DNA from: Intestinibacillus massiliensis
GTDB lineage: Bacteria; Bacillota; Clostridia; Oscillospirales; Butyricicoccaceae
Direction: 5' to 3'
Assembly (NCBI GenBank): GCA_029267335.1
Contig: JAJUJC010000002.1
Span: 62,001 to 126,000, forward strand
Length of the DNA stretch: 64,000 nucleotides
Shown: piece after piece, positions 3,446 to 62,912 of the stretch
How the letters are laid out: each line of letters opens with the position of its first letter
How positions within the stretch are numbered: the first letter of the stretch is position 1
Notes under the pieces: generated by a model
The model's database searches: none
Told to the model about the DNA's origin: nothing
Seen by the model: only the letters and a program-made list of their open reading frames with translations
Translations under genes and position numbers: made by a program

Positions 3446-3499
3446 CGGTGTAAAATCCGCGCTTAGATGGAACCTTCTCTATCACAATGCGATTTATCC

Positions 3500-3543
3500 T
3501 TTTGTCCCGCCCACAGGCGATAGTGCCCGCGCCGGCGAGGCGC
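3500..3543 (+). repeat. dispersed repeat, middle module (copy R1)
   Basis: The segment GTCCCGCCCACAGGCGATAG followed by TGCCCGCGCCGGCGAGGCGC matches the middle module of the larger copies at 39355 and 61391. It ends right at the ribosome-binding site of coaE. Confidence 0.6.
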
Positions 3544-17582: not shown

Positions 17583-17590
17583 GCCTAAAA

Positions 17591-17636
17591 TCCTCGTCCC
17601 GCGCGGCGCGCGACATTGCCCGCACCGGCGAGGTGC
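17591..17636 (+). repeat. dispersed repeat, middle module (copy R2)
   Basis: CCTCGTCCCGCGCGGCGCGC followed by GACATTGCCCGCACCGGCGAGG resembles the middle module of the copies at 39355 and 61391. It abuts the serS stop codon. Confidence 0.5.
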
Positions 17637-18920
17637 TTAGCGGATGGCTTCCTGACCGCCCATATACGGACGCAGCGCTTCCGGAATGCGCACCGAACCG
17701 TCCGCCTGCAGGTTGTTCTCGAGGAATGCGATCAGCATACGCGGGGGCGCAACGACCGTGTTATTGAGTGTGTGCGCAAAGTACAGCTCCTTGCTGTCCT
17801 TGCCGCGTACGCGGATACCCAGACGGCGCGCCTGTGCATCGCCGAGGTTGGAGCACGAACCAACTTCGAAATACTTTTTCTGGCGCGGGGACCATGCCTC
17901 TACGTCGCAGGACTTGACCTTCAGGTCTGCCAGATCACCCGAGCAGCACTCGAGCGTGCGCACCGGAATGTCGAGCGTGCGGAAGAAATCGACCGTGTTC
18001 TGCCACAGCTTTTCATACCACATGGGGCTTTCTTCGGGCTTACACACGACGACCATTTCCTGCTTTTCGAACTGATGGATGCGGTACACGCCGCGCTCCT
18101 CAATGCCGTGCGCGCCGACTTCCTTGCGGAAGCAGGGCGAATAGCTCGTCAGCGTCTGCGGCAGGGTCTCCTCCTCGTTGATCGTGTCGATGAACTTACC
18201 GATCATGGAGTGCTCCGAGGTGCCGATCAGATAGAGATCCTCGCCCTCGATCTTGTACATCATGTTCTCCATCTCCGCGAAGGACATAACGCCCGTCACA
18301 ACATCCGAACGGATCATGAACGGCGGGATATAATAGGTGAAGCCGCGGCCGATCATAAAGTCACGCGCATAGGACAGGATGGACGAATGCAGGCGCGCAA
18401 TGTCTCCCGCCAGATAGTAGAAGCCGTTGCCCGAGGTGCGGCGCGCGGAATCCAGGTCGATGCCCGAGAACTTCTCCATGATGTCGACGTGGTACGGAAT
18501 TTCATACTCCGGCACGACCGGCTCACCGAAACGCTCGATCTCGACGTTCTCAGAGTCGTCCTTGCCGATCGGCACCGACGGGTCAATGATGTTCGGAATG
18601 ACCATCATGCGCTGACGTACTTCCGCCGCGTAGGTCTTTTCGTCCTCTTCCAGCTGTGCCATTTCGTCCGCCATCGCCTTGACCTGCGCCTTGATGGTTT
18701 CCGCTTCTTCCTTCTGTCCCTTCGCCATCAGGCCGCCGATCTGCTTCGACAGCGTGTTGCGCTGGGAACGCAGTTCGTCGGCACGGGTGCGCGCCGCACG
18801 GAATTTCGCGTCCAGCTCGATGACCTCATCAACGAGCGGCAGCTTTGCGTCCTGGAACTTCTTCTTGATGTTCTCCTTGACGAGTTCCGGATTGGTTCGG
18901 ACGAGTTTGATGTCCAGCAT
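17637..18920 (-). CDS. serS: seryl-tRNA synthetase
   Basis: A 427-residue class II aminoacyl-tRNA synthetase. It starts MLDIKLVRTNPELVKENIKK, and residues ~30-105 form the long antiparallel coiled-coil arm that grips tRNA-Ser. Motif 2 (FRKEVGAHGIEERGVYRIHQFEKQEM) and motif 3 (GSCSNLGDAQARR; the last Arg binds ATP) are present. It lies 27 bp after a small membrane-protein gene and probably shares the parA-parB transcript, with the terminator at 17551 downstream. No T-box leader is seen, consistent with internal operon position. Confidence 0.97.
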   Translation of the reverse strand: MLDIKLVRTNPELVKENIKKKFQDAKLPLVDEVIELDAKFRAARTRADELRSQRNTLSKQIGGLMAKGQKEEAETIKAQVKAMADEMAQLEEDEKTYAAEVRQRMMVIPNIIDPSVPIGKDDSENVEIERFGEPVVPEYEIPYHVDIMEKFSGIDLDSARRTSGNGFYYLAGDIARLHSSILSYARDFMIGRGFTYYIPPFMIRSDVVTGVMSFAEMENMMYKIEGEDLYLIGTSEHSMIGKFIDTINEEETLPQTLTSYSPCFRKEVGAHGIEERGVYRIHQFEKQEMVVVCKPEESPMWYEKLWQNTVDFFRTLDIPVRTLECCSGDLADLKVKSCDVEAWSPRQKKYFEVGSCSNLGDAQARRLGIRVRGKDSKELYFAHTLNNTVVAPPRMLIAFLENNLQADGSVRIPEALRPYMGGQEAIR

Positions 18921-30037: not shown

Positions 30038-31339
30038 TTGAGCGCACAAAATGACATTCTGGCGATGGCGCTGGACCAGATGCAGAAAACGCAGGGGATC
30101 AATCCCGTATCGCTGACCGCGTGGTTTGACGACGCGACGGTCGTGGATTTTTCGGGCAACGTGCTGACGCTGCACACGCCGAACGATTTCAAGAAGGACA
30201 TCATCACGGAGCGGTTTCTCATTCCGCTGACGACCGCGCTGCGCGAACTGATGAGCAGTACAGACATCGAGGTCACGGTAACGACGGGGGAAATGGAAAA
30301 CGCGGGCGGGGTCAGCTATGGTCTGACGCCGGACGACGGCTACACCTTTGAGCAGTTCATCGTAGGCAATTCCAACAAATTCGCGCACGCAGCGGCGCTT
30401 TCGGTCGCGAAAAATCCCGCACAATATTATAACCCGCTGTTTATCTACGGTCAGTCCGGACTGGGCAAGACCCATCTTTTGTATGCCATCGCGGCGGTCA
30501 TCCGCAAAAATCATCCCTCCTACCGCATCATTTATGTCAAGGGCGAGGATTTCACAAACGAGCTGGTCAGCGCCATTCAAGAGGGCGACGTGCAGAATTT
30601 CCGTGGGAAATACCGCATGGCGGATCTGCTGCTCATTGACGATATTCAGTTCATTGCGGGCAAAGAGCGCACGCAGGAGGAATTTTTCCATACCTTCAAC
30701 GCGCTTTACGAGGCACACAAGCAGATCGTGCTCACCTCGGACCGCCCCCCGAAGGAGATCAACACCCTTGAGGATCGTATGAAGACCCGTTTTGAGTGGG
30801 GACTGCTCGCAGACATTCAGCCGCCGGATTACGAGACGCGCATGGCGATCACGCGCGCGAAGGCGGAAAAGCTCGGATTTGACCTTCCCGGCGATGTCGT
30901 GCAGGTCATCGCCAAGACGCTGCACTCGAACGTCCGTCAAATCGAGGGCACGATCAAAAAGATCCAAGCGCTGCACAATCTGCTTGGTCAGGAGATCAAC
31001 ACCGACCTTGCCAACCGAGCGATCGACGAGGTGCGCGGCTCGGACGAAGACCTGATCCCGACCCCGCCCAAGATCTTGCAGGCAGTCGCGAATTATTACA
31101 GCATTCCGGTCGAGCAGATCGTAGGCTCGCGCCGCTCCAAGGACACGGTGCAGCCGCGCCAGGTCGCGATGTATCTCGTGCGCGAGCTGACGAATTATTC
31201 CCTGCCCGAGATCGGCAAGGTTTTCTCGCGCGATCACACGACCGTGCTCCACTCCATCAACAAAATCGAGGACGAGCGCAAAAACTCCGCGGAAATGGAT
31301 GCCATCCTCAAAACCCTCATCTCCAATATCCAACCCTAG
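30038..31339 (+). CDS. dnaA: chromosomal replication initiator DnaA
   Basis: A 433-residue initiator ATPase. Domain I covers about 1-85 with a short linker; the AAA+ domain has Walker A GQSGLGKTHL (GKT at 143-145) and Walker B ADLLLIDDIQFI; the C-terminal domain ends with the box-binding signature FSRDHTTVLHSINKIEDE. A TTG at 30038 is the probable start because AAAGGAGGG (30019-30027) stands 10 bases upstream; the ATG at 30014 would place the SD inside the gene. It is transcribed toward the unwinding region in the dnaA-dnaN gap. Domain II is short, as in other Clostridia. Confidence 0.96.
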   Translation: MSAQNDILAMALDQMQKTQGINPVSLTAWFDDATVVDFSGNVLTLHTPNDFKKDIITERFLIPLTTALRELMSSTDIEVTVTTGEMENAGGVSYGLTPDDGYTFEQFIVGNSNKFAHAAALSVAKNPAQYYNPLFIYGQSGLGKTHLLYAIAAVIRKNHPSYRIIYVKGEDFTNELVSAIQEGDVQNFRGKYRMADLLLIDDIQFIAGKERTQEEFFHTFNALYEAHKQIVLTSDRPPKEINTLEDRMKTRFEWGLLADIQPPDYETRMAITRAKAEKLGFDLPGDVVQVIAKTLHSNVRQIEGTIKKIQALHNLLGQEINTDLANRAIDEVRGSDEDLIPTPPKILQAVANYYSIPVEQIVGSRRSKDTVQPRQVAMYLVRELTNYSLPEIGKVFSRDHTTVLHSINKIEDERKNSAEMDAILKTLISNIQP

Positions 31340-31416
31340 CGCCGCAGCGGCGCAGCCAAGTGTCCATTCCGGGCGCGTGAGCCGCGCTTGATCCGCAATC
31401 GGGACGGGGGACAATG
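31339..31416 (+). repeat. dispersed repeat, left hairpin module (copy R3)
   Basis: TGTCCATTCCGGGCGCGTGA and then GCAATCGGGACGGGGGAC match the left module of the copy at 39355 with several changes. It lies between the dnaA stop codon and the first DnaA box of oriC, preceded by GCGCCGCAGCGGCGC. Confidence 0.55.
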
Positions 31417-39354: not shown

Positions 39355-39537
39355 GCCGCTCACAGCGGCAGGTAATGTCGATTCCGGGCGGCTGAGCGCC
39401 GCTATTTCCGGAATCGGGACGAAGGACGCGGGGGACAGAGATTTTTTTCTCCGTCCCGTCCGCAGGCGACACTTCCCACCCCGGCGAGGGGCCGCTCAGC
39501 CGCCCGCCGTTGACACCTGGCTGTCCGGCTGCCGGAC
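39355..39537 (+). repeat. dispersed repeat, longest copy (R5)
   Basis: About 183 bases that fill the gyrA-glgA gap. The left part GCCGCTCACAGCGGCAGGTA is followed by a stem GATTCCGG (39380-39387) / CCGGAATC (39408-39415) around GGCGGCTGAGCGCCGC. A middle module CGTCCCGTCCGCAGGCGACA with CCCCGGCGAGG and a right part CTGTCCGGCTGCCGGAC follow. The left 76 bases match the copy at 57116 except where both stem arms change together. Confidence 0.8.
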
Positions 39538-39616: not shown

Positions 39617-41056
39617 GTGAAAAAGATCCTGTTTGTCGCATCCGAATGTGTACCGTTTGTCAAGACCGGTGGGCTTGCCGATGTGGTCGGTGCGCTGCCT
39701 GCCGCGCTCGATCGGGAGCAGTACGATGTGCGCGTGGTAATTCCGAACTATCGCTGCATCAAGCCGGAATATCGCGCAAAATTTCATCCTATCGCGCATT
39801 TTTATATGGATCTCGGCGGTCTCGGTGATGTTTACGTCGGCGTGATGGGGTATGAGCACGAGGGCGTGCGGTATTATTTCATTGATAACGAGCACTACTT
39901 CAGCGGGGAAAAACCGTATGGCGACCTGCAATGGGACATTGAAAAATTCTGCTTTTTCTCGAAGGCAGCACTTGCCATTCTGCCCGTTATCAACTTTCAT
40001 CCCGACATCATTCATTGTCATGACTGGCAGGCAGGTCTTGTGCCCGTCTATCTGCACACCCTGTTCAATCCCAATCCCTTCTTCCACGGTATCCGCACCG
40101 TGATGACCATTCATAATCTGCGCTTTCAGGGCGTGTGGGACATCGACACGATCGCGCACTATACCGGACTGCCGCAGGAGGTGTTTACGCCCGACCGACT
40201 GGAGTATCACCAGGACGCGAACATGCTTAAGGGCGGTCTGGTCTATGCCGACCGCATCACGACCGTATCGCGCACCTATGCCGAGGAGATCCGCGATCCG
40301 TTTTACGGCGAGGGGCTGGACGGTCTGCTGCGCGCCCGCGCGAATAGCCTGTCCGGTATTATAAACGGCGTGGATTACGCGTTTTACGACCCCGCGACAG
40401 ACAAAAAACTCCCGAAAAACTACACCGCGGAAACCGTGCGCGAGGGTAAGATCGCGTGTAAGACCGCTTTGCAGCAGGAGCTTGGGCTTGTGCCTGATCC
40501 CAACCGCATGATGATCGCGATGGTCACGCGCCTGACCGACCAAAAGGGTCTGGATTTGCTTGCGTGGATCATGGATACGCTGCTCGGCACACCGGTGCAG
40601 CTCGTCATCGTGGGTACGGGCGACGCGAAATACGAAAATATGATGCGGCATTATGAATGGCTGCATCAGGGGCAGGTTTCTGCAAATATTATGTTTGATG
40701 ACGGTCGTGCGCGCCGTATTTATGCCGCTGCCGATCTTATGCTCATGCCCTCACAGTTTGAGCCATGCGGTCTGACGCAGCTCATCTCTATGCATTATGG
40801 CACGCTGCCGCTCGTGCGCGAGACCGGCGGTCTGCGCGACACCGTGCAGCCTTATAACGAGTATGACGGCACGGGTACGGGCTTCTCCTTCACGCAATAC
40901 AACGCGGATGACATGCTGTATGTGCTGCTTTATGCGCAGAAGCTGTTTTATCACGACCGCGCGGCGTGGGATGCGATGGTGCAGCGCGCCATGCACGCGG
41001 ACTTTTCCTGGAATACCTCCGCGCGCGAATACGAAGCGCTCTACGAATCCCTCTAG
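39617..41056 (+). CDS. glgA: glycogen synthase (ADP-glucose type)
   Basis: A 479-residue GT5 glucosyltransferase that extends alpha-1,4-glucan from ADP-glucose. It starts at a GTG with GGAGGG 9 bases upstream. KTGGLADVVGALP near residue 15 is the ADP-glucose-binding loop; HCHDWQAGL, MVTRLTDQKGLD and PSQFEPCGLTQLISMHYGTLPLVRETGGLRDTV are the remaining GT5 motifs. No glgB, glgC, glgD or glgP is adjacent, so the other glycogen genes must lie elsewhere if the pathway is complete. Confidence 0.95.
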   Translation: MKKILFVASECVPFVKTGGLADVVGALPAALDREQYDVRVVIPNYRCIKPEYRAKFHPIAHFYMDLGGLGDVYVGVMGYEHEGVRYYFIDNEHYFSGEKPYGDLQWDIEKFCFFSKAALAILPVINFHPDIIHCHDWQAGLVPVYLHTLFNPNPFFHGIRTVMTIHNLRFQGVWDIDTIAHYTGLPQEVFTPDRLEYHQDANMLKGGLVYADRITTVSRTYAEEIRDPFYGEGLDGLLRARANSLSGIINGVDYAFYDPATDKKLPKNYTAETVREGKIACKTALQQELGLVPDPNRMMIAMVTRLTDQKGLDLLAWIMDTLLGTPVQLVIVGTGDAKYENMMRHYEWLHQGQVSANIMFDDGRARRIYAAADLMLMPSQFEPCGLTQLISMHYGTLPLVRETGGLRDTVQPYNEYDGTGTGFSFTQYNADDMLYVLLYAQKLFYHDRAAWDAMVQRAMHADFSWNTSAREYEALYESL

Positions 41057-41191
41057 CCATTTGCCGTCGCGGGGACTGCCGCGCACGGCACGAGACGAAG
41101 GACAAAACGGATTTTCTCCTGCTGCACCGCGGGATTTTTCACAAAAATGGTACTCTCCCTTCCCACACAAGGGACGGAAAGAAGGAATTGG

Positions 41192-45984: not shown

Positions 45985-46431
45985 ATGCAAAAGATTGCAA
46001 TTCCGGTCAAAAACGGACAAATTGACCCCGATCTCGGTCGGGCGACTGCGTTTCTGCTCGTCACGGCGCAGGCGGGGCGCGAACTGTCGCGCGAGACCCT
46101 AGCCGCCCCCGGCGAGGGCAATGTATCGGTCGTCAACCTGCTCGCGGGCGTGGGCGCAACCGCGCTCATCTGCGGCGAACTTGGTCTTATGGCACGCTCG
46201 GCGTTCCAGATGATGGAGCTTGAGCTCATTCCGGGCTGTCTGGGCGATGCGGACGAGGCGGTCGCGACCTATCTGCGCGGCGAAGCACAGGGCGACCCGT
46301 CCATCCTGTCGGTCGAGATCCAGATGGACGAAAACGACCCCATGCAGTGCATGCACGACTGCGCGAAGTGCGGTGGCTGCGGCGATCCCGAGCTGCTCGA
46401 AAAGATTCGCAAAAACATCCCTGAAGTATAA
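45985..46431 (+). CDS. NifX/NifB-C-like iron-molybdenum cofactor-binding domain protein
   Basis: A 148-residue protein of the dinitrogenase iron-molybdenum cofactor family (PF02579): MQKIAIPVKNGQIDPDLGRATAFLLV, GVGATALICGELG. Such small proteins bind metal clusters. No nif genes are seen, so a housekeeping Fe-S role is likely. The C-terminus has CMHDCAKCGGCG, spaced nearly like the N-terminal cysteines of the upstream Mrp. Its SD AAAAAGGAG overlaps the mrp 3' end, implying coupling. Confidence 0.88.
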   Translation: MQKIAIPVKNGQIDPDLGRATAFLLVTAQAGRELSRETLAAPGEGNVSVVNLLAGVGATALICGELGLMARSAFQMMELELIPGCLGDADEAVATYLRGEAQGDPSILSVEIQMDENDPMQCMHDCAKCGGCGDPELLEKIRKNIPEV

Positions 46432-48134: not shown

Positions 48135-48208
48135 GCACCGCTCACAGTGGTGCGTAGTGTCAACGGCCCGGAATCGACATCCGGCTGTCCGGCCGCCGGA
48201 CTCCGCCG
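48135..48208 (+). repeat. dispersed repeat, short copy (R7)
   Basis: CCGCTCACAGTGGTGCGTAG with TGTCAACGGC is the left end of the family; it then jumps straight to CGGAATCGACAT and GGCTGTCCGGCCGCCGGAC, the right end, as if internally deleted. It overlaps the last ~16 codons of the LacI-type gene. Confidence 0.65.
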
Positions 48209-55408: not shown

Positions 55409-56632
55409 ATGAAACCTTTGGTTTATGCAGATAATGCGGCGACAACGCCGATTTCCAAGAACGTATACAACGCCATGCAGCCGTGGCTGACCACGGGCTA
55501 CGGCAACCCGTCGAGCTGGATGTATGACACCGGCAAGCAGGCGGGCCGCGCCATGGACGAGGCGCGTGCACTCGTTGCCAAGGGCATCGGCTGCGACCCG
55601 TCCGAGATCATCTTCACGGGCGGCGGCTCGCAGGCGGACAACCTCGCCATCAAGGGCTTTATGGCGGGCGCGAGCGCCAAGGGCAGAAAGCACATCATCA
55701 CCTCGAAGATCGAGCACCATGCGGTGCTGTACACCTGCGAATATCTGGAATCGCAGGGCTATCGCGTCACTTATCTCGATGTCGACGCACAGGGTCATGT
55801 CGATCTCGACCAGCTGCGCCGCGAGATTTCCGAGGATACCGCCCTTGTTACCATCATGGCGGCGAACAACGAGATCGGCACGATCCAGCCGCTTGCAGAG
55901 ATCGCAAAGATCGCGCACGAAGCCGGTGCGGTGTTCCACACGGACGCGGTGCAGGCGGTCGGCCACATGGCGCTCGACGTGCGCGCGCTCGAGATTGACA
56001 TGCTCTCCCTGACTGCGCATAAGCTGCGCGGACCCAAGGGCATCGGCGCGCTGTATGTCAAGAAGGGCATTAAGCTCGTGCCGCTCGTGCACGGCGGCGG
56101 ACAGGAGCGCGGCATTATGTGCGGCACGGAGAACGTCGCGGGCATGGTCGGTCTGGGCGAAGCGGTACGCGATGCGACCGAGCGCCGCGAGGAGATCATG
56201 GCGTATGTACGCGGTCTGCGCGACCGTCTGGTCGAGGGCGTCATGAAGATCCCTTACACCCACTTTACCGGCGATCCGGTGAATCGTCTGCCGGGCACGG
56301 CGTCGTTCGTGTTCGAGGCGATCGAGGGCGAAGGTCTTATCATGCGTCTGAACGAGTACGGCATCTGCGGCTCGACCGGTTCGGCGTGCTCGACCGGCTC
56401 GCTCGACCCGTCCCATGTGCTCATGGCGATCGGTCTGCCGCATGAAATTGCGCATGGCAGCCTGCGTCTGACCCTCGGCGAGCAGAACACCGCGGAAGAG
56501 GTCGATTATATCATTGAAAAGCTGACCGAGGTCGTCGCAACGCTGCGTTCCATGAGCCCGGTTTGGGAGAACGGCGCGCCCAACCTGACCGCCGCGTCCG
56601 AGCTGACCGCACATACCCATCATCACCACTAA
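55409..56632 (+). CDS. cysteine desulfurase, NifS/IscS type
   Basis: A 407-residue PLP enzyme that takes sulfur from cysteine for Fe-S cluster assembly. The N-terminus VYADNAATTPIS, PLP lysine K205 in SLTAHKLRGPKGIG, and catalytic C327 in GSTGSACSTGS are present. The tail ends HTHHHH, a natural histidine cluster. TAGGAGG lies 9 bases before the ATG. iscU follows after 47 bases. This nifS-iscU pair with no iscR, sufBCD or hscAB nearby is common in Clostridia. Confidence 0.95.
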   Translation: MKPLVYADNAATTPISKNVYNAMQPWLTTGYGNPSSWMYDTGKQAGRAMDEARALVAKGIGCDPSEIIFTGGGSQADNLAIKGFMAGASAKGRKHIITSKIEHHAVLYTCEYLESQGYRVTYLDVDAQGHVDLDQLRREISEDTALVTIMAANNEIGTIQPLAEIAKIAHEAGAVFHTDAVQAVGHMALDVRALEIDMLSLTAHKLRGPKGIGALYVKKGIKLVPLVHGGGQERGIMCGTENVAGMVGLGEAVRDATERREEIMAYVRGLRDRLVEGVMKIPYTHFTGDPVNRLPGTASFVFEAIEGEGLIMRLNEYGICGSTGSACSTGSLDPSHVLMAIGLPHEIAHGSLRLTLGEQNTAEEVDYIIEKLTEVVATLRSMSPVWENGAPNLTAASELTAHTHHHH

Positions 56633-56679
56633 TTCAGTGTGTAAAACCCAACGGTTTATATAAAAAGGAGCATATTGAA

Positions 56680-57114
56680 ATGCAATACAGTGAAAAGGTA
56701 CTCGACCATTTCTCTCACCCCCGCAATGTGGGCGAGCTCGAGGACGCGAACGGCGTCGGTGAGGTCGGCAACGCCAAGTGCGGCGACATCATGAAGATTT
56801 ACCTCAAGGTATCGGACGACGGCATCATTGAGGACGTCAAGTTCAAGACCTTTGGCTGCGGCGCGGCGATCGCGACGAGCTCGATGGCGACCGAGATGGT
56901 CAAGGGCAAGACGCTTGAAGAAGCGCTCAAGCTGACCAACAAGGCGGTTGCGGAAGCGCTCGACGGTCTGCCGCCGGTCAAGATGCACTGCTCTGTCCTC
57001 GCGGAAGAAGCGCTGCGCAGCGCGATCGCGGACTACTACAAGCGTATGGGCAAGGACCCGCAGGAGATCCTCGGCTGTAGCTGCGACTGCGCAAACTGCG
57101 GCTGCGAACACTAA
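56680..57114 (+). CDS. iscU: Fe-S cluster scaffold protein IscU/NifU
   Basis: A 144-residue scaffold. The three ligand cysteines C34 (NAKCGD), C60 (TFGCGAAIATSS) and C104 (KMHCSVLAEEAL) are in place. The C-terminus adds GCSCDCANCGCEH, an extra Cys-rich tail not seen in E. coli IscU but frequent in clostridial NifU-type proteins. It receives sulfur from the desulfurase upstream. AAAAGGAG precedes the ATG by 9 bases. Confidence 0.94.
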   Translation: MQYSEKVLDHFSHPRNVGELEDANGVGEVGNAKCGDIMKIYLKVSDDGIIEDVKFKTFGCGAAIATSSMATEMVKGKTLEEALKLTNKAVAEALDGLPPVKMHCSVLAEEALRSAIADYYKRMGKDPQEILGCSCDCANCGCEH

Positions 57115-57115
57115 C

Positions 57116-57191
57116 GCCGCTCACAGCGGCAGGTAGTGTCAACGGCAGGCGGCTGAGCGCCGCTATTTCCGCCGTTGGGACGAGGGACGCG
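57116..57191 (+). repeat. dispersed repeat, left hairpin module (copy R8)
   Basis: GCCGCTCACAGCGGCAGGTA leads to a stem CAACGGC (57140-57146) / GCCGTTG (57171-57177) around GGCGGCTGAGCGCCGC, then GGGACGAGGGACGCGG. It matches R5 except that both stem arms differ together. It begins just after the iscU stop codon; weaker similarity may extend to 57260. Confidence 0.8.
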
Positions 57192-57277
57192 GTCGTGCGC
57201 GCATAAATCCCCCGCGCCGCGCGCGCCAGTACCCGCTCTGGTCCCGGGCATACTTCCCCAAAAAATTGCATACCATA

Positions 57278-61381: not shown

Positions 61382-61390
61382 GTTCAGCGA

Positions 61391-61541
61391 CCGGACAGAC
61401 AAATGTCGATTCCGGGCGGACCCCTCGCCAGGGCGAGCATTGTCGCCTGCGGGCGGGACGAGAAAAAACTGAGCGCCCCGCATCCCCCGTGCCAACGGCG
61501 GAAATAGCGGCGCGCAGCCGCCCGCCGTTGACATCACCTGC
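61391..61541 (-). repeat. dispersed repeat, inverted copy (R9)
   Basis: Read on the minus strand it has the stem CAACGGC / GCCGTTG (61524-61530 and 61493-61499) around GGCGGCTGCGCGCCGC, then the middle module CTCGTCCCGCCCGCAGGCGA with CGCCCTGGCGAGG, and the right part CGGAATCGACATTTGTCTGT. Orientation is opposite to R5 and R8. It lies next to the stop codon of the stalk-domain gene. Confidence 0.78.
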
Positions 61542-61553
61542 CCCGGTGCGGGG

Positions 61554-62912
61554 CTAGGGGACGATGGTGCCCGTGGGGCGACGGGCGGGCGCGGCGGACG
61601 CGGGCGCGCTCGTTTCGGTCAGCGACGCGGTCAGGTGATAGCTTGCGCTCGCGATGTCGAGCGATGCGGTCATGCCCGCCGCATTGCGCGTGATCGTGTT
61701 CGACAGCACGGTCACGCCGTTTTGTGCCACGGTGTGCGTGCTCTTGGCAGCAGTGAACGCGCCTGCCGCGTCGGTCGTGAGCATCAGCGTGCGGGTGTCG
61801 GTCGCGCCGTCTGCTGTGGTCGCGGTCGCAGTCACGCCGATGCCGCCCTGGGCGGCGGTGAACGCGCTGTCGCGATAGGGCGCGCGCAGCGCGGTGAGCG
61901 CGGTCGTGAACGTTCCGACATTGTCGGCAGCGGCGTGCGTGATGCTGCTGCCCGCCGCTGCGCCGGTCGTGTACTGCGCAAAGCTGTGGCGCATAAGTCC
62001 GGTCAGTGCACTTTCGGTCAGCTTGCCGCCGGACAGCGCACGCAGCGCAGGGTCAAGCGGCAGACGCACCCATGCGCCGTTCGGCACGCCAAAATCGGTG
62101 AGCGGACCTTTGAGATAGAGTGCGCTGTCCGGACGGCTGATGACGCAGGAATACGTCGCGTTTTGCAGCTGTGAGAGCAGGTTTGCCACGCCCTCGGATA
62201 CCGCGTCGCTGTCCTGCGCGAGCGCGGAAGTCAGCGCGGCGATGTCGGTCGTAACCTGAATGTCAAGCGCCGCTGAGGTCGTATCGCGCGTGCCGGAATA
62301 GTTCACTTTCATAGGCACGGCGAAGTCGCCATTCGCCGCGTGCACCGTGTAGAGCACGCTCAGTGTGCCCGACACCGCGCGGCTGTCCGTGGGTGCGAGC
62401 AGCGCAAGATAGCGATCCATCACCGTGAAATCGTTCGTGTTCACCGCGCCGCGCTTTGCCGCATCCACGATGACCACCGTGCGCGCTGCGGCATCCCAAC
62501 CCACATTCGCGCCGAACGCCTGCGCCGCAAAGCGCACGGGCACATAGGTGCGCCCGTTTTCGAGGAAGCTCTTCGCGTCGGTCACGGCGGCGCGGGTCTC
62601 GCCCTGCTCGGTGACGGTCACGGTCTTTTGCCCGATGACAAGCTGCACGGCTGTGCCGTCCCGCGTCGCAGACACGGTCTGGGTTTTGGCGTCCCAGCCG
62701 ACCGTCGCGCCCATCGCCTCAAAGATCGCGCGCAGCGGCACATAGGTGCGTCCGCCGCGCAGCAGCGGCTGTCCCCCCGCTGCGGTAAATTGCAGCGCCG
62801 TGCCGTCGACCGTGACCGCGATTGTATTCGCGGCGAACGCGGCAGGCGCACTCATGCCGAGCAGCGCCGTACTCAAAAGCACGGCGAGCAGCCGCGAAAT
62901 CATCCTTTTCAT
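61554..62912 (-). CDS. exported stalk-domain (copper amine oxidase N-like) protein
   Basis: A 452-residue protein with signal peptide RMISRLLAVLLSTALLGMSAPAAFAAN and two stalk-domain repeats: GGRTYVPLRAIFEAMGATVGWDAKTQTVSA (~53-82) and NGRTYVPVRFAAQAFGANVGWDAAARTVVIVD (~122-153). The rest (155-440) is Ala/Thr-rich with no recognised domain. Stalk domains are common on the surface of Clostridia and may bind cell-wall sugars. A TTGGAAA-N5-TTTCCAA hairpin lies in its leader. Confidence 0.85.
   Translation of the reverse strand: MKRMISRLLAVLLSTALLGMSAPAAFAANTIAVTVDGTALQFTAAGGQPLLRGGRTYVPLRAIFEAMGATVGWDAKTQTVSATRDGTAVQLVIGQKTVTVTEQGETRAAVTDAKSFLENGRTYVPVRFAAQAFGANVGWDAAARTVVIVDAAKRGAVNTNDFTVMDRYLALLAPTDSRAVSGTLSVLYTVHAANGDFAVPMKVNYSGTRDTTSAALDIQVTTDIAALTSALAQDSDAVSEGVANLLSQLQNATYSCVISRPDSALYLKGPLTDFGVPNGAWVRLPLDPALRALSGGKLTESALTGLMRHSFAQYTTGAAAGSSITHAAADNVGTFTTALTALRAPYRDSAFTAAQGGIGVTATATTADGATDTRTLMLTTDAAGAFTAAKSTHTVAQNGVTVLSNTITRNAAGMTASLDIASASYHLTASLTETSAPASAAPARRPTGTIVP

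Follow-up and report, generated by a model that had tools for sequence, protein, structure and literature searches.

A mosaic family of hairpin repeats, often directly behind stop codons, on the dnaA contig of an Intestinibacillus genome

Whether the hairpin repeats of bacteria are passive or functional is an old question. In the sections cited here of the survey by Di Nocera et al. (2013, PMC3733652), CGTC-tagged REPs carry a CGTC tag, often changed to TGTC, followed by a short-loop hairpin; they form inverted dimers, lie near the 3' ends of ORFs and have no dedicated transposase, their stem starts with AT and their tail is CCA, and Firmicutes do not appear among the hosts listed there. The same survey describes most REP families as scattered over the whole genome and names a single family that is clustered instead (section 15). 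BIMEs and REPINs with RAYT combine inverted hairpin units in intergenic mosaics, according to the portions cited of PMC2817692 and PMC3116915. For E. coli, the cited part of PMC12306157 counts 4,072 predicted REPs, 446 of them no more than 15 nt from a stop codon, and states, from earlier work, that REPs so placed stall ribosomes.

We analyzed a window (the whole stretch of DNA under study, 64,000 nucleotides) in which a first-pass annotation had grouped segments at 3500, 17591, 31339, 39355, 48135, 57116 and 61391 into one family of intergenic hairpin repeats. The grouping holds: covariance models built from nine L units (R1) and five S units (R2) matched seven of the eight segments named there, whereas the eighth, 36690 (98.7 kb on contig C4), proposed as a weak member, reached 11.5 bits with R2 (E 1.4) without an R1 match and was dropped. 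Since six of the seven matched segments helped to build the models, the copy at 48137 (R1, E 0.03) is the only independent model match among them. When the 186-nt copy at 39355 was compared by BLAST with its own 2.2-Mb genome, eight matches were obtained (E 2.9e-93 to 3.5e-4), and repeat detection placed 31340, 39355 and 57116 in one direct family, with 61478-61554 as an inverted copy. The units of the window are as follows.

3493-3543, minus strand: S unit, antisense to both neighbours and upstream of coaE (R2 64.4 bits, R2 seed; R1 21.8 bits)
17586-17636, minus strand: S unit directly after the serS stop (gene 17637-18920, minus strand; R2 61.4 bits, R2 seed; R1 32.8 bits)
31339-31416, plus strand: L unit in the dnaA-dnaN gap, sharing the last base of the dnaA stop (R1 80.5 bits, R1 seed)
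39355-39431, plus strand: L unit of a composite, behind the gyrA terminator-like hairpin (R1 98.5 bits, R1 seed)
39443-39492, minus strand: inverted S unit of the 39355 composite (R2 64.9 bits, R2 seed)
39493-39537, minus strand: inverted half unit of the 39355 composite, with hairpin 1, linker, TGTC and the AACGGC arm only (read directly)
41056-41106, plus strand: degenerate, weak S unit from the last base of the glgA stop (R2 20.7 bits; E 0.0017 on C4, 0.012 in the whole genome)
48137-48201, strand not assigned: minimal composite, a plus half unit joined to a minus half unit (R1 22.3 bits, E 0.03)
57116-57192, plus strand: L unit 1 nt behind the stop of a nifU-like gene (56563-57114; R1 95.7 bits, R1 seed)
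61387-61417, plus strand: half unit with the GATTCCGG arm (BLAST match to the 48135 copy)
61420-61469, plus strand: S unit, inverted relative to the L unit at 61478-61554 (R2 67.8 bits, R2 seed)
61478-61554, minus strand: L unit sharing the last stop base of gene 61554-62912 (minus strand; R1 93 bits, R1 seed)

A unit begins with hairpin 1 (5-bp stem, 5-nt loop), which 5-7 nt of linker separate from TGTC; then come hairpin 2, which is long in L units but short in S units, and the tail GGGACGARGGAC. Both TGTC and the tail have variants among the units. Nine different 5' arms of hairpin 1 were found in 18 units; examples are GCCGC-TCACA-GCGGC, GCACC-TCGCC-GGTGC and GTCCG-GCAGC-CGGAC. In the alignments the tag reads TGTC in six and CGTC in one of the nine L units and TGTC in four of the five S units, and in some folds it partly pairs with GGGAC. 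Hairpin 2 of L units has an outer stem of class GATTCCGG, AACGGCGG or ACCGGCGG, which encloses GCGGC-TGAGC-GCCGC and an unpaired TATTT. Composite copies are made of inverted units in which opposite stem classes are combined, and three were found (39355, 48137 and 61391), the overall copy number being low: at 39355 and 61391 an L unit is accompanied by two inverted elements, an S unit and a half unit of the other stem class, and the one at 48137 comprises two joined half units. Near three units (window 39440-39465; C4 at about 54290 and 264020) we also observed terminator-like hairpins of the form GGGACRGA..TCYGTCCC, two of them followed by T; the hairpin at 39440 sits within the composite copy.

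Like REPs and BIMEs in general, these are dispersed, non-coding palindromic units, and inverted ones are combined in mosaics. With CGTC-tagged REPs, as described in the cited sections of PMC3733652, they share the unpaired CGTC/TGTC tag before a hairpin, the inverted units and the proximity to ORF 3' ends; they differ in having a second hairpin before the tag, few copies and a single contig. Among the nine L units, AT directly follows the tag in none and CCA directly follows the stem in none. Because stem start and tail do not match, the family is not filed under CGTC REPs, although these are the nearest described kind on the evidence of those sections. Unlike the BIMEs and REPINs of PMC2817692 and PMC3116915, in the portions cited, it has longer units, is not genome-wide and comes without a detected Y1/RAYT gene. 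The hairpin directly behind a stop codon is shared with E. coli REPs near stops, but nine of 15 loci stand at 0-1 nt here against 446 of 4,072 REPs within 15 nt there (PMC12306157, part cited). We conclude that the family works like a BIME, and claim no kinship to a named family.

The stems are those first annotated, GATTCCGG/CCGGAATC at 39355 and CAACGGC/GCCGTTG at 57116 and 61391, and the loop, described there as kept, is so except at one base in the 61391 copy, where TGCGC replaces TGAGC. That both arms change together was borne out in the nine aligned L units: 93.1% of cells were paired, compared with 77.8% in shuffles (0 of 500 as high), 10 of 21 pairs carried double changes, and the covariation score was 0.398, compared with 0.137 in shuffles (0 of 500) and at most 0.075 in slid controls. 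Both hairpins were recovered by an unconstrained consensus fold. Whole stems are exchanged between copies (for example, GATTCC by AACGGC), and pairing alone, not stem sequence, is conserved. Mispairs in L-unit stems and nine further hairpins 1 were four G-U and seven A-C, that is, without an excess of G-U. Folded as single-stranded DNA, three copies gave z values of -4.1 (39355), -2.6 (57116) and -3.0 (61478), and the remaining four of the seven copies tested folded no better than shuffles (z -0.65 to -1.27); the 183-nt composite folded as RNA gave z -4.9. Internal deletions between short repeats were read by eye, for example at 192 kb on C4. Within the window, Rfam yielded no matches at gathering scores and hence no known RNA family, and no tRNA or tmRNA was found.

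At nine of the 15 loci recognized on C4, the unit is in sense orientation and starts 0-1 nt after a stop codon, in some cases sharing the last stop base (C4 positions 54169, 60308, 79636 behind serS, 93339 behind dnaA, 103056 behind glgA, 119116 behind the nifU-like gene, 123554, 173693 and 192174 behind pflB); nine of 15 loci accordingly lie within the 15 nt of a stop used for translation-regulating REPs. At 119116 the ORF caller took the wrong strand, and the nifU-like gene is the ORF at window positions 56563-57114. The unit at 65543 is not in sense relative to its 5' neighbour. The first-pass statement that copies lie always between genes fails for the copy at 48137 and for three copies outside the window, which overlap ends of genes predicted by a simple ORF caller; the units overlapping gene ends, besides the one at 46286, are those at 144231, 263920 and 110201. 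At 46286, an in-frame TGG stands at the expected stop and the frame closes six codons later inside the unit, so that a methyltransferase-like ORF runs six codons into the repeat before TAG (C4:46283-46306). By the simple caller, the base before the stop is C in all nine stop-abutting genes, compared with 64 of 255 genes, and the stop is TAG in five of the nine, compared with 23 of 255. Despite this over-representation, the idea that the unit supplies the stop codon was rejected as a general rule, since the host proteins have their expected ends: the alignment of SerS with its genus-mate counterpart covers 427 of 427 residues, and profile coverage is 436/437 positions for DnaA, 477/477 for GlgA, 743/744 for PflB, 852/853 for a ClpB-like protein and 411/411 for a MacB/LolCE-like permease. 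From these full-length alignments, the stops look natural.

The genus mate compared was genome G001, in which the Intestinibacillus massiliensis sequence L077 (NZ_LT707052.1) is present without a single difference; the window therefore belongs to a species of the same genus. Between the stop of the nifU-like gene and the common terminator there are 163 nt in the window, with the L unit in between, compared with 26 nt in this genome, which also has no unit behind its dnaA or serS stops, and its 81-kb origin contig contains no repeats of the window's kind. Because the unit is absent from these comparable sites, it was probably inserted in the window's lineage. R1 matched the window's own genome alone among 60 relatives and 87 genomes of the family (E 0.01), and likewise in sets of 394 genomes of the order and 391 of the class (E 0.001); all four sets overlap and contain the window's own genome, and the filters applied were strict. 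Plasmid and phage collections gave no BLAST match at E 1e-5, and viral contigs contained no exact copy of a 21-mer of the L unit; one exact match to hairpin 1 lies in apparent coding sequence and was rejected as a relative. Conservation as a single-copy element in distant relatives, which the first-pass annotation had named as speaking against its proposal, was thus not found, and its description of a dispersed, lineage-specific, REP/BIME-like mosaic agrees with the further copies, the inverted composites and the three comparable genus-mate sites that are without a unit.

The 3' module of the S unit is more widely distributed. At E 0.01, R2 matched 12 of the 87 family genomes, namely the window's own, G026 and ten others; the 11 matches in these ten were judged by eye to be coding or unrelated and were not counted. 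In G026 there were eight R2 matches on eight contigs, which correspond to stacked-hairpin arrays ending in TCGCCTGCGGGCGGGACGRRGG, the 3' module of the S unit. Across 378 kb of this assembly, taken mostly from five contigs picked for their matches, we found 45 module matches, of which 38 are intergenic (21 sense and 17 antisense to the upstream gene), five lie within called ORFs and two have no upstream gene in the stretch. Their spread is uneven: contig C111 has eight within its first 60 kb and none in its last 97 kb, and two further short contigs have none; the G026 assembly is fragmented and rated 6% contaminated. The stretches L190-L207 (for example, L198-L201) and L166 of G026 appear as long GC-rich intergenic hairpin stacks of types GGGGCTCTGCCCC, AGAGGGGCTAGCCCCTCT and GTCCTGCGCGGAC, ending in TCGCCTGCGGGCGGGACG. 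The exact 18-mer of the module was also found in 16 stretches (L174-L189) on 13 IMG/VR contigs, most of which resemble similar mosaics and at least three of which (L177, L186 and L188) do not; four contexts lie closely behind a stop codon (L175, L181, L185 and L187). The IMG/VR arrays carry other hairpin types before the 18-nt module (CCTCAGTCAGC..GCTGACAGCTCCTTC and CCCTTCCCC..GGGGAAGG).

The TCGCCTGCGGGCGGGACG mosaics of G026 and IMG/VR thus share with the window family the S unit's 3' module, the stacked GC hairpins and, in several arrays including those of G026, a start directly behind a stop; they differ in being longer and more numerous, and in G026 they lack the L unit (R1 search) and show no orientation bias. 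As R2 was built from the window genome's own S units, what links the two is the common 3' module and, in some copies, hairpin 1. The common module points to a mosaic repeat family that extends beyond the window's own genome; our literature searches yielded no description of such a family.

A whole-genome search, as the first-pass annotation had suggested, returned further copies, and all 15 loci fall on one of the ten contigs, C4 (299 kb), which carries dnaA-dnaN and is presumed to hold the replication start (46286, 54169, 60308, 65543, 79636, 93339, 101355, 103056, which is weak, 110137, 119116, 123554, 144231, 173693, 192174 and 263920). R1 gave 14 matches below E 0.3, all on C4 (150 of 819 candidates scored), and a match at E 0.84 on C6 looks like coding sequence; R2 gave eight matches below E 0.02, all on C4 (150 of 1744 candidates scored), followed by three (E 0.035-0.115; one on C6, two on C4) that resemble coding sequence or are located within it. 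Among the candidates scored, nothing outside C4 fell below E 0.03. Because part of the candidates had been scored, both models were rerun on C4 and on stretches of other contigs: at E ≤ 0.01, C4 yielded 12 (R1) and eight (R2) matches, compared with none for either model in 375 kb (20 stretches) drawn from eight contigs besides C4 together with C5, where the best E values were 0.073 (R1) and 0.27 (R2). The genome-wide spread of REP/BIME units was therefore not seen, as judged with models seeded from C4, an assembly in ten pieces and 375 kb of the other contigs. TGTCGATTCCGG with one mismatch was also tried; it occurs at 35 genome sites (30 with loci), and on visual inspection the sites outside C4 resemble coding sequence.

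A scan for structure only (a GC-rich 5-bp hairpin starting from the last stop base to two bases further) gave seven of 255 genes on C4, six of them family units, compared with none of 322 genes elsewhere (19 stretches), none of 62 in the genus mate's origin contig and five of 297 in G026. If placement were uniform, the finding of all 14 stricter loci on C4 would have a P of about 7e-13, and on C4 itself 10 of these 14 lie within 50 kb of the dnaA-dnaN gap, compared with 4.7 expected (P 0.004). The cumulative GC-skew minimum of C4 is at 142 kb, not at dnaA, and DnaA-box-like sites (two mismatches allowed) are densest in the 90-95 kb bin; since GC skew does not mark the origin, it is placed by gene order and these sites only.

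The observations of the first-pass annotation are thus confirmed and its interpretation is partly supported; three findings go beyond it, namely the exact position behind stop codons, the restriction to the contig with dnaA and the wider spread of the 3' module. Confinement and exact placement are the surprising parts in a family that resembles known bacterial repeats. With about 15 sites, recognizable 5' junctions at stops, covarying stems, no RAYT found and one chromosomal region, it forms a compact test case for the old question, and if confinement holds in a closed genome, spread or function would be tied to chromosome position.

On balance, and with moderate confidence, we read the family as a non-coding REP/BIME-like mosaic hairpin repeat that was inserted in the window's lineage and multiplied there near the origin. 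Units would have entered by insertion and then multiplied through a copying process that may act on the hairpin as single-stranded DNA, its agent possibly being a hairpin-recognizing enzyme in trans that has since been lost or is of another type than those searched. Template switching that rewrites one arm from the other would explain the replacement of whole stems. Units may persist behind stops either because they do little harm there or because the process prefers such sites, and the upstream mRNA would be affected, if at all, only secondarily. Against this account, neutral persistence does not explain the exact stop-codon placement, four of the seven copies tested show no folding advantage over shuffles as single-stranded DNA, the evidence for insertion comes from one strain compared with a genus mate, and no transposase was obtained with the two profiles searched, PF01797 and PF01610. 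A RAYT/TnpA_REP gene in the same genome, as first proposed, was rejected: Y1_Tnp (PF01797) had no match in this assembly, which is rated 100% complete, and matched five of 14 genomes as a control; the ISL3-type profile PF01610, a poorly chosen search, also had none. With respect to the terminal inverted repeats of MITEs, inverted half units occur in the three composites only. No common target-site duplicate is readable at the 5' junctions compared; the 3' boundaries are unclear, and the empty sites come from the genus mate.

Alternatively, the unit may be a 3' UTR RNA whose hairpin, 0-1 nt past the stop, delays the ribosome at termination or shields the end of the mRNA, selection keeping stems and placement. 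The nine of 15 loci that abut stops in sense keep this idea alive, as does the ribosome stalling stated for E. coli REPs within 15 nt of a stop (PMC12306157, part cited, from earlier work). However, the same stops in the genus mate do without a unit, a functional need leaves detection on a single contig unexplained, and the related G026 arrays have 21 modules in sense and 17 in antisense. Moreover, whole-stem exchange and mispairs in which G-U does not exceed A-C lead us to prefer pairing kept at the DNA level, and we consider selection on a 3' UTR possible but unlikely.

It is somewhat more doubtful that spread is spatially gated, with sense insertion exactly behind stops only within reach of the origin, either because copying depends on the origin region (through single-stranded DNA linked to the origin, or through local hopping) or because a function in the origin domain retains the units.

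An account without any mobile process seems improbable: replication slippage and template switching would shape and perfect the hairpins, ectopic recombination would spread copies locally, and covariation would be a mutational by-product. Whole-stem exchange, internal deletions between short repeats (C4, 192 kb) and local clustering fit it, but template switching does not supply unrelated sites behind stops with a constant 5' boundary. Centromere-like sites of an origin domain are known from the RacA-bound sites of Bacillus subtilis. Units bound in this manner by a protein, as cruciforms or hairpins, would agree with the location of all 14 stricter loci on the contig that carries dnaA, 10 of them no more than 50 kb from the dnaA-dnaN gap; nevertheless, pairing and not stem sequence is conserved, stop placement and sense orientation would be unexpected, and the genus mate's origin contig has no units, which makes this quite improbable. 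Finally, that C4 or its assembly derives from a donor lineage with genome-wide repeats, confinement reflecting the transfer of a large segment or faulty assembly, is very improbable and was rejected on a weak test of composition and protein distance, because, although GC and GC3 of C4 are slightly above most stretches sampled elsewhere, the assembly is rated 100% complete with 0.22% contamination, dnaA and gyrAB lie on C4, tetranucleotide distances overlap, and the distance of C4 proteins to I. massiliensis is no greater than that of other proteins (median 77.5%, n = 29, compared with 69.2%, n = 7; too few to decide).

A minor observation concerns contig C1, where one stretch (L117, G000:C1:500001-520000) has a low GC content (45.5%), deviant tetranucleotides and little coding sequence according to the simple caller, and may be an island or a prophage.
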